Of a stretch of DNA of 64,000 bases, positions 31,272-41,761 are shown in pieces. The position numbers and the translations under genes were made by a program. The notes below the pieces were generated by a model. The model did not search any database, was not told the origin of the DNA, and was given only the letters and a program-made list of their open reading frames with translations. Position 1 is the first letter of the stretch. Every line of letters begins with the position of its first letter. Source of the stretch: Maribacter algarum (ex Lu et al. 2025) (nom. illeg.) (lineage in GTDB: Bacteria > Bacteroidota > Bacteroidia > Flavobacteriales > Flavobacteriaceae); assembly GCA_947495915.1 (NCBI GenBank), contig CANMAW010000010.1, positions 1 through 64,000 on the forward strand, read 5' to 3'.

Positions 31272-31574
31272 TCAAGTAGCTAACCTAATTTTTCCCTTTC
31301 GTTTTTTTAATTTTCTTTCCAAAGAATTACAAGCCGAATCTACAGCCTCCTCAAAAGACTTACATGTCTTTTTTACAACATATTTATCTCTTGGAATATT
31401 TAATTTTATTTCAACAATCTTATTCTCTTTTGAACTGGTATTCACCACTTTCAATGACACATCAGAACTTATAACCTTATCATAAAAGGTTTCCAGTTTA
31501 TTAAGTCGAGTCTCAACGAAACGATAAAGTTTCACATCGGCATTAAAATTTACTGATTGAGTGTTTACTTTCAT
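31272..31574 (-). CDS. hpf: Ribosome hibernation promoting factor, short form (HPF/RaiA)
   Basis: A 100-residue ribosome-binding protein of the short HPF/YfiA family (MKVNTQSVNFNADVKLYRFVETRLNKLETFY; conserved basic C-terminus ERKLKKRKGKIRLAT). It binds the decoding centre of idle ribosomes. It lacks the long-HPF C-terminal dimerisation domain. It lies 39 bases after xerC on the same strand. Confidence 0.92.
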   Translation of the reverse strand: MKVNTQSVNFNADVKLYRFVETRLNKLETFYDKVISSDVSLKVVNTSSKENKIVEIKLNIPRDKYVVKKTCKSFEEAVDSACNSLERKLKKRKGKIRLAT

Positions 31575-31613: not shown

Positions 31614-32507
31614 TTAGTTTTTGTTTCTTGGATGCGCGGTCAAATGAACTTTTTTGAGCTCTGCAATACTATTATGTGTATAAACTTGTGTAGAGGCCAA
31701 ACTTGAATGACCCAACAACTCTTTAACCGAGTTTAAATCTGCACCTTTATTTAGTAAGTGTGTAGCGAACGTGTGCCTCAAAATATGCGGGCTTTTCTTA
31801 ACCTTGCTCGATACCTGACTAAGATACCTATTTATAACTCTATATACAAGAGTTTCGTATATCTTAGCTCCAGATTTAACCAAGAAAACATTAGAAACTT
31901 CAACCACTCTCTCTAACTCTTTACGCTTATTTAGATATGCTACATATAGAAGCTTCGTTGTTTGTAGCAGCGGTAAAATTCGCTCTTTACTTCTTTTTCC
32001 TAAAACCTTAATCGTATTTCTATTCAAATCTACATCCGCTAGCTTCAAATTAACCATTTCTGCTCTTCGCATCCCTGTTGTATACAATAACTCGATAATC
32101 AACTGATCACGACAACCTTCAAAATCATCACTAAACTGAATTTGTCGTAATACCGTTTCCATTTCAGTCTCAGAAAACGGCACCTCAACTTTCTTAGGAG
32201 TCTTAAGCGCTTTATGCTTCGACAATGGATTACTATCAACAACACCAATCTGTTGAAGAAATCGATAATACGATTTTAATGAAGCTACTTTTCTATTAAT
32301 ACTTCGATTTGAAATTTCAAGATCTACCATACTCACAATCCAACTTCGAATTTGAGCATATACCGCCTGATCAATTGAAGAAACATCAAATTGACTTTTA
32401 CAATACTCCGCAAACGATTCTACATCTCTCTTATAAGCATTAACCGTATGCTCTGAGTAGTTTTTCTCTAATGACAAGTAAGTAACAAAAGCAGTAATTG
32501 ATGACAT
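31614..32507 (-). CDS. xerC: Tyrosine recombinase XerC
   Basis: A 297-residue site-specific recombinase for chromosome dimer resolution. The N-terminal SAM-like core-binding domain (residues 1-85) is followed by a catalytic domain with the Arg in TTGMRRAEM, HILRHTFATHLL (His-x-x-Arg), LLGHSS (second His) and the nucleophile Tyr in STQVYTH. The genomic setting (core genes, no att repeats) favours a housekeeping XerC over a phage integrase. A TAnnTTTG box (TAACTTTG) ends only 4 nt before the ATG, so the message may be leaderless. Confidence 0.93.
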   Translation of the reverse strand: MSSITAFVTYLSLEKNYSEHTVNAYKRDVESFAEYCKSQFDVSSIDQAVYAQIRSWIVSMVDLEISNRSINRKVASLKSYYRFLQQIGVVDSNPLSKHKALKTPKKVEVPFSETEMETVLRQIQFSDDFEGCRDQLIIELLYTTGMRRAEMVNLKLADVDLNRNTIKVLGKRSKERILPLLQTTKLLYVAYLNKRKELERVVEVSNVFLVKSGAKIYETLVYRVINRYLSQVSSKVKKSPHILRHTFATHLLNKGADLNSVKELLGHSSLASTQVYTHNSIAELKKVHLTAHPRNKN

Positions 32508-32562: not shown

Positions 32563-32592
32563 AAAAAAAAATCTCGCTGCTAGCGAGATTTT
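32563..32592 (-). terminator. Terminator of rpsU
   Basis: A perfect 11-bp stem (32568-32578 with 32582-32592, AAAATCTCGCT/AGCGAGATTTT) with a 3-nt loop, followed on the minus strand by eight U (32570-32563). It separates rpsU from xerC. Confidence 0.9.
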
Positions 32593-32620: not shown

Positions 32621-32815
32621 TTAGATTTCTTCTTGATCTCTTAATCCTTGAATATATTCAGCTTTTTGAATCTGAGCTCTTCGAGCTACTGAAGGTTTTG
32701 TAAATGCTTGTCGCTTACGCAATTGACGCATTGTACCAGTTTTATCGAACTTTCGCTTGAAGCGCTTTAAAGCTCTATCGATGTTTTCTCCTTCTTTAAT
32801 TGGTATTATTAACAT
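32621..32815 (-). CDS. rpsU: 30S ribosomal protein bS21
   Basis: A 64-residue basic small-subunit protein (MLIIPIKEGENIDRALKRFK; RRAQIQKAEYIQGLR). In the Flavobacterium johnsoniae ribosome bS21, with bS18 and bS6, hides the 16S anti-Shine-Dalgarno tail; I recall Tyr54 as a contact residue, and residue 54 here is Tyr. The gene is monocistronic: it has its own consensus promoter and a strong terminator. Unlike its neighbours it is preceded by an 11-nt perfect anti-SD complement, consistent with autoregulation by ribosomes lacking bS21. Confidence 0.97.
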   Translation of the reverse strand: MLIIPIKEGENIDRALKRFKRKFDKTGTMRQLRKRQAFTKPSVARRAQIQKAEYIQGLRDQEEI

Positions 32816-32823
32816 GGGCTACA

Positions 32824-32834
32824 ACCTCCTTTCT
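32824..32834 (-). promoter_or_regulatory. Unusually strong Shine-Dalgarno sequence of rpsU
   Basis: The minus strand reads AGAAAGGAGGT, ending 8 nt before the ATG. It is an exact complement of ACCTCCTTTCT, the 3' tail of flavobacterial 16S rRNA. No other gene in the window that I inspected has a comparable site. Confidence 0.9.
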
Positions 32835-32850
32835 TTAGTGATTAGGGCTG

Positions 32851-32880
32851 CAAAGATATAAACTAATTTACAACCTGCAA
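32851..32880 (-). promoter_or_regulatory. Promoter of rpsU
   Basis: TTG (32880-32878), 19 nt, then TATCTTTG (32858-32851) on the minus strand: a full match to the Bacteroidota promoter. It predicts a leader of about 30 nt that contains the Shine-Dalgarno sequence. Confidence 0.7.
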
Positions 32881-41611: not shown

Positions 41612-41642
41612 TTGGTGAATTTAAAAATGATTTCTATATTTG
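41612..41642 (+). promoter_or_regulatory. Promoter of the trp operon
   Basis: TTG (41612-41614), 20 nt, TATATTTG (41635-41642): full match to the Bacteroidota promoter. The start site would fall at about 41647-41650, that is at the ATG of the leader peptide (41648). Confidence 0.75.
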
Positions 41643-41647
41643 AACAA

Positions 41648-41704
41648 ATGAAAACAAGAAACTCAAATACTTGGTGGTGGAACAACTCTCGACAGTCATC
41701 GTGA
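41648..41704 (+). CDS. trpL: trp operon leader peptide
   Basis: An 18-codon frame encoding MKTRNSNTWWWNNSRQSS with three consecutive Trp codons (41672-41680), then TGA at 41702. Position directly after the promoter and before an intrinsic terminator identifies it as the sensor of a transcription attenuator: ribosomes stall at the Trp codons when charged tRNA-Trp is scarce. No Shine-Dalgarno is present and the predicted transcript may begin at the ATG itself. Confidence 0.88.
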   Translation: MKTRNSNTWWWNNSRQSS

Positions 41705-41761
41705 GCTGAGCATCATTGTAGTTAAACTATATAAGGCCTGTCATCACGACAGGCCTTTTTT
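41686..41761 (+). promoter_or_regulatory. trp attenuator (alternative RNA structures)
   Basis: Three structures can be drawn. 1:2 pairs 41686-41692 with 41699-41705 (one U-U mismatch), over the leader stop codon. 3:4 is an intrinsic terminator, 41733-41742 with 41748-41757 (AAGGCCTGTC/GACAGGCCTT), then six T ending at 41761. 2:3 pairs 41699-41704 with 41744-41749, 41707-41709 with 41741-41743 and 41711-41712 with 41739-41740, which excludes both others. Stalling at the Trp codons would cover segment 1 and favour 2:3, allowing read-through into trpE. Confidence 0.8.

Follow-up and report, generated by a model that had tools for sequence, protein, structure and literature searches.

In Flavobacterium johnsoniae, ribosomes deficient in the ribosomal protein bS21 have been shown to prefer the mRNA of rpsU, the gene encoding bS21 itself (McNutt et al. 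2023; PMC9976891), and this preference depends on extensive pairing. According to that paper, the system was tested with the Y54A mutation, a C-terminal deletion and depletion of bS21. An rpsU reporter went up at least 3-fold when bS21 was mutated or depleted, a strong Shine-Dalgarno (SD) sequence in a tuf reporter gave no gain in output in the wild type, and purified ribosomes without bS21 initiated faster on rpsU mRNA (PMC9976891). SD avoidance is reported there for the order Flavobacteriales, the members of which typically have one gene bearing such an SD, approximately 80% of them satisfying the authors' criteria (PMC9976891). The autoregulation of bS21 is restated in a review (PMC10931766) and in PMC10783764.

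In Chryseobacterium and its relatives, a UCUCA anti-SD goes together with a matching rpsU leader, a finding credited to Jha et al. 2021 (PMC9976891, PMC8710568). Multiple bS21 homologues are described from other phyla, e.g. from Francisella (PMC9976891, PMC10931766); the Discussion of McNutt et al. names groups with extra bS21 genes, and Bacteroidota are not among them (PMC9976891). In Escherichia coli, the macromolecular synthesis operon is rpsU-dnaG-rpoD (PMC10931766).

We analyzed the rpsU locus of a marine Maribacter genome (Flavobacteriaceae) in a window of 64,000 nucleotides, i.e. the whole stretch of DNA presented above. A site in the leader of rpsU is very probably an extended SD that serves the translational autoregulation of bS21, as in F. 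johnsoniae. The mechanism that a sequence-only reading of this DNA had cited from F. johnsoniae is indeed published, and the inference of that reading, selection of the rpsU message by ribosomes without bS21, is what McNutt et al. 2023 demonstrated in F. johnsoniae and predicted for most Flavobacteriales (PMC9976891).

The rpsU gene and its leader

The gene lies on the minus strand, and the features of the window that bear on it, together with one RNA element found elsewhere in the window, are as follows.

32878..32880, minus strand: TTG, -33 element of a predicted promoter, 19 nt upstream of TATCTTTG
32851..32858, minus strand: TATCTTTG, -7 element of the predicted promoter; TATCTTTG or TATATTTG is similarly placed in 12 same-genus leaders
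32824..32834, minus strand: AGAAAGGAGGT, extended SD of rpsU, complement of the 16S 3' tail over 11 nt; RNA duplex prediction -18.1 kcal/mol
32621..32815, minus strand: rpsU, ribosomal protein bS21, 64 aa, Tyr54 (7jil_z, E 4.6e-28; TIGR00030, 60 bits, cut-off 28.95)
32568..32592, minus strand: intrinsic-terminator-like hairpin 3' of rpsU with an 11-bp stem, a 3-nt loop and a T run (detected on each strand; shuffle mean 0.2)
31614..32507, minus strand: xerC-like tyrosine recombinase, the next gene after rpsU (best match TIGR02224, 291.2 bits, under the 335.15-bit cut-off)
31272..31574, minus strand: HPF/YfiA-family ribosome hibernation factor (TIGR00741, 48.6 bits, cut-off 40.9)
41628..41742, plus strand: Bacteroid-trp leader RNA (RF01692, 54.6 bits)

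The leader reads TATCTTTGCAGCCCTAATCACTAAAGAAAGGAGGTTGTAGCCCATG on the minus strand, and its ATG at 32815 is separated from AGAAAGGAGGT by a spacer of 8 nt (32823-32816). The 3' end of the 16S rRNA was read from the sole 16S gene found in the assembly (G000:C13:37-1566, where G000 is the window genome). It is ACACCTCCTTTCT, the end of the gene being printed as CTGGAACACCTCCTTTCT. Since the gene ends in CTGGAACACCTCCTTTCT, AGAAAGGAGGT is the exact complement of ACCTCCTTTCT, giving 11 contiguous pairs, with the pairing broken at the next base. The predicted energy of -18.1 kcal/mol lies below the -13 kcal/mol criterion of rpsU extended-SD autoregulation in Bacteroidia.

The sequence-only reading had placed an 11-nt perfect anti-SD complement at 32834-32824, 8 nt ahead of the rpsU ATG and behind a TTG-N19-TATCTTTG promoter, and had named a non-complementary 16S tail in the same genome as the result that would speak against it. 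The coordinates proved exact, and the tail is complementary to the site. The promoter layout is also as claimed (TTG at 32880-32878, 19 nt, TATCTTTG at 32858-32851), and the Tyr proposed for residue 54 of bS21 was counted at that position in the 64-aa translation. By the consensus, the TTG/TATCTTTG pair is presumably a promoter of the Bacteroidetes type (-33/-7). A scan for promoters of the sigma-70 type, which does not cover the Bacteroidetes type, found none (shuffles 1.6). The Rfam search of the window gave five tRNAs and the trp leader.

We observed the whole pocket set in the window genome, i.e. bS21 with Tyr54, bS18 and bS6, Tyr54 being the contact residue checked individually. These proteins align with chains of the F. 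johnsoniae ribosome (7JIL): bS21 with 7jil_z over residues 1-62, bS18 with 7jil_w over residues 1-98 and bS6 with 7jil_k over residues 1-113. The PDB entries 9oyv, 9ozz and 9p0e share their bS18 and bS6 sequences with 7JIL and are absent from the listing under the 7JIL bS21 sequence; thus, they are perhaps ribosomes without bS21.

SD strength across the genome

SD strength was ranked in a sample made up of the window and 16 stretches of 20 kb (384 kb, 9.2% of 4,174,141 bases). The start of each ORF of at least 100 aa was placed at its first ATG, ORFs starting less than 60 nt from the end of a stretch were dropped, rpsU (64 aa) was entered by hand, and scoring was against the 13-nt 16S tail. 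The results showed that rpsU ranked first of 287, at -18.1 kcal/mol compared with -8.9 kcal/mol for the best of the 286 other ORFs. When the SD region (the 22 nt preceding the start) was compared with a mock region (30-52 nt upstream), the SD region of the 384-kb sample had fewer matches at all thresholds between -2 and -10 kcal/mol: 15 vs 34 at -6 kcal/mol or lower, 2 vs 13 at -8 kcal/mol and 0 vs 8 at -9 kcal/mol. The earlier claim that this lineage ignores SDs fits these counts.

The possibility exists that the site is a plain strong ribosome-binding site that keeps expression of a ribosomal protein constitutively high, independently of any feedback from bS21. It is general knowledge that a strong SD boosts expression in many bacteria, and the predicted fold of the rpsU leader is unremarkable and not strongly structured (z 1.17). 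We nevertheless consider this explanation improbable, given that strong SDs are depleted among the sampled genes and that, in F. johnsoniae, the tuf reporter was unmoved by a strong SD in the wild type, while the rpsU reporter rose at least 3-fold with bS21 mutated or depleted (PMC9976891).

The whole genome was searched with the pattern AAAGGAGGN{3,13}ATG (i.e. AAAGGAGG-N3-13-ATG), which does not capture starts at GTG or TTG, or variants with G-U pairs such as AGAGAGGAGGT, and is narrower than a full ranking. There were 36 matches, and 29 with the reversed control pattern, so the pattern itself occurs at about chance frequency and what is special is only its position at a gene start. All 36 matches were inspected. 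Only at rpsU does the ATG open, as its first start, an ORF of 60 aa or longer; at the other 35, it opens an ORF of less than 60 aa or the frame has starts further upstream. The best rival energies among the matches were -17.0 kcal/mol (13-aa ORF) and -16.9 kcal/mol (83 codons, 8 upstream starts). Six of the matches other than rpsU sit in frames of 83-457 codons with upstream starts and, since the first-start rule is mechanical, a genuine internal start is possible among these six frames. Many genes with equally strong SDs were what the sequence-only reading had named as a further refuting observation; no comparable site occurred in the 9% sample or, in the pattern scan, at other first-start ORFs of at least 60 aa genome-wide. 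The near-equal numbers (36 for the 8-base core followed by an ATG after 3-13 nt, 29 for the control) would suit a chance match within an AT-rich leader, whereas the fact that rpsU alone among the 36 combines a first start with an ORF length of 60 aa or more speaks against it.

The site in related genomes

For the leaders of relatives, energies were calculated with the 16S tail of the window genome, except in the own-tail comparison of covariation, and bS21 loci were assigned to whichever of two classes gave the higher alignment score. A bS21 match was present in 57 of 59 genomes of relatives. Among the best 80 of 549 confirmed relative loci, all 80 were at -13 kcal/mol or lower (range -17.4 to -21.9 kcal/mol) and all had Tyr54, which argues against a chance match; the 8-nt spacing was seen in 58 of these best 80 (of 549) by an exact-match rule. 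In the same genus, 11 of the 12 genomes with a bS21 locus were at -13 kcal/mol or lower, the exception being L014. The same held for 32 of 34 main rpsU leaders of Flavobacteriaceae, with L014 (-7.6 kcal/mol) and L028 (-2.2 kcal/mol) as exceptions. These 34 are a hand list omitting L064 and L066, which are extra bS21 copies without SD that scored canonical (by 1 and 5 points), and the count is 32 of 36 if both are included. All canonical-class loci together numbered 58, of which 33 reached -13 kcal/mol with the window's tail and 49 were accompanied by a same-strand xerC homologue. L070, a contig-edge fragment, was dropped, and the leader of L065 (G050) was cut one codon late.

Within the order but outside the family, one locus of 22 (L040) reached -13 kcal/mol with the window's tail, and the count is 3 of 22 when L051 and L053 are added by their own tails, 16S tails having been read for 10 of the 22 genomes. 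These results show that many lineages of the order are without the rpsU site. Since the SD is missing at L014, L028, L064, L066 and most of the outside-family loci, the order as a whole does not require this site for rpsU. Many small families were each represented by one or two genomes in this draw, and there is therefore no conflict with the published value of approximately 80% of Flavobacteriales.

16S tails and rpsU leaders

Two genomes of one genus (G039 and G052) have 16S tails with ACATCTCATTTTA and rpsU leaders with AAAATGAGATGT. Their leaders gave -14.6 kcal/mol with their own tail and -4.5 kcal/mol with the window's tail, and the window's rpsU leader gave -6.4 kcal/mol with the G039/G052 tail. 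This covariation reproduces the already published UCUCA case. The Chryseobacterium system has the same pairing between rpsU and the anti-SD as the window genome, which differs by its ordinary CCUCC core.

As rRNA and rpsU mRNA change in concert in G039 and G052, we give the chance explanation almost no credence. It is also conceivable that the site binds another factor, such as an antisense RNA or the bS21 protein in its free form, and that its complementarity to the 16S tail is of secondary importance; it is general knowledge that free ribosomal proteins act as repressors of their own mRNAs in other operons. This is very unlikely, however, since the leader in G039 and G052 follows the changed 16S tail, which would be unnecessary for a protein site, and since purified ribosomes without bS21 start faster on rpsU mRNA (PMC9976891). 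On the basis of conservation, SD depletion, covariation and the published experiments, we therefore rejected all three rivals, namely chance, a plain strong ribosome-binding site and protein binding.

Altered anti-SD cores (AACTCC, CCTCAT, ATCTCAT and ATCTCTT) were found across L272 (G037), L273 (G046), L121 (G050) and the 600-kb f16 genomes, the last of which, judging by their size, are probably insect endosymbionts. Scored with their own tails, G037, G046 and G050 had no matching SD in the rpsU leader. Seven genomes had a 16S tail that could be read and no rpsU SD at -13 kcal/mol; the CCTCC core is altered in three of them (G037, G046 and G050) and unaltered in four (G042, G048, G053 and G054). 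A scenario in which the anti-SD decays once rpsU has lost its SD was considered, and the seven genomes are split three to four on it.

A second class of bS21 in Flavobacteriaceae

Hand counting across 149 family genomes, most genera being represented by one, gave 65 with at least two bS21 matches. Judged from two reference sequences, second-class bS21 differs in the middle of the protein, with HRNVKVMQNL in place of FDKTGTMRQL. The second-class set comprised 56 distinct loci after removal of the duplicates L205, L213, L217 and L219, and is biased towards one query, since the loci are mostly best matches to it. None of the 56 leaders had an SD at -13 kcal/mol when scored with the window's 16S tail (best -9.8 kcal/mol, L234), and Tyr54 was present in 53 of the 56 proteins. 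An RpoD-type sigma gene lay on the same strand within flanks of approximately 1.5 kb at 30 of the 56 loci and was absent from these flanks at 26. It was upstream of bS21 in 29 of the 30, with a gap of 31-43 nt in 22 of those 29.

L050:694-1792, and also L048, L207, L209, L242 and others: second-class bS21 without SD, downstream of an RpoD-type sigma gene
G000:C7:70234-71094 and G000:C3:22061-22921: the two RpoD-type sigma genes of the window genome, one conserved and one divergent

The sigma copy away from bS21 was 95-100% identical across five compared genomes, and this identity extended to the copies in G000, G006, G034 and G354. The copies linked to bS21 were 80-89% identical to one another, that of G022 being only 51-56% identical to anything. 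The genome search found only one bS21 in the window genome, and there was no bS21 within approximately 1.5 kb of either of its RpoD-type sigma genes. Thus, the system of the window does not include a bS21 of the second class.

In six of the 149 genomes, the single bS21 match in the sequence searched was of the second class: G354, G151, G493, G518, G517 and G383, with the loci L235-L239 and L241, respectively. L241 was assigned to this class by 14 points. The 16S 3' ends of these six genomes were not found, or read N.

Discussion

The system in the window shares with the bS21 autoregulation of F. johnsoniae the gene, the position of the site, the 16S tail, the class of 9-13 bp and less than -13 kcal/mol, and Tyr54. 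There is likewise one outstanding SD, as far as the 9% sample and the pattern scan reach in the window genome. We found no substantive difference; the rpsU site of the window pairs over 11 nt, is spaced by 8 nt from the ATG and is an ordinary instance of a published mechanism. From the published F. johnsoniae work, we infer that translation of rpsU in this Maribacter genome would depend on bS21. In ribosomes containing bS21, the 16S tail would be kept in the pocket formed with bS18 and bS6, and initiation on the rpsU message would be poor. In ribosomes lacking bS21, the tail would be free to form the 11-base pairing with the rpsU leader, and bS21 would be made until the shortage ends. The window adds a Maribacter case to a clear published example of specialised bacterial ribosomes.

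As in the Francisella type of multiplicity, many Flavobacteriaceae have more than one bS21 gene per genome. Unlike that case, the window genome has no extra bS21, and the second class of Flavobacteriaceae lacks an SD and often adjoins an RpoD-type sigma gene. The proximity of a bS21 gene to an RpoD-type sigma gene in the second class of the relatives is shared with the E. coli rpsU-dnaG-rpoD operon, but, at the Flavobacteriaceae loci checked, the linked sigma is the divergent copy of the two and bS21 mostly comes after it, and rpsU of the window is not beside a sigma gene. There is no description of a second, SD-less, sigma-linked bS21 of Flavobacteriaceae in the portions of PMC9976891, PMC10931766 and PMC10783764 covered here. 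The second class outside the window may be new, although, with partial coverage of the literature, the absence of a description is no proof of novelty.

With its Tyr54 kept and no strong SD, the second bS21 could escape the loop and form a switch of ribosome isoforms tied to a sigma switch in many Flavobacteriaceae, a tentative reading that we consider possible but rather doubtful. Provided that the second bS21 is incorporated into ribosomes and closes the pocket over the tail, activation of the sigma operon would yield ribosomes with the alternative bS21 and would turn off translation of the SD-bearing rpsU. The six genomes with only the second class would then have lost the loop, if this reading is true. 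The relatives thus pose a testable question: how an SD-less second bS21 beside an alternative sigma gene affects the rpsU loop.
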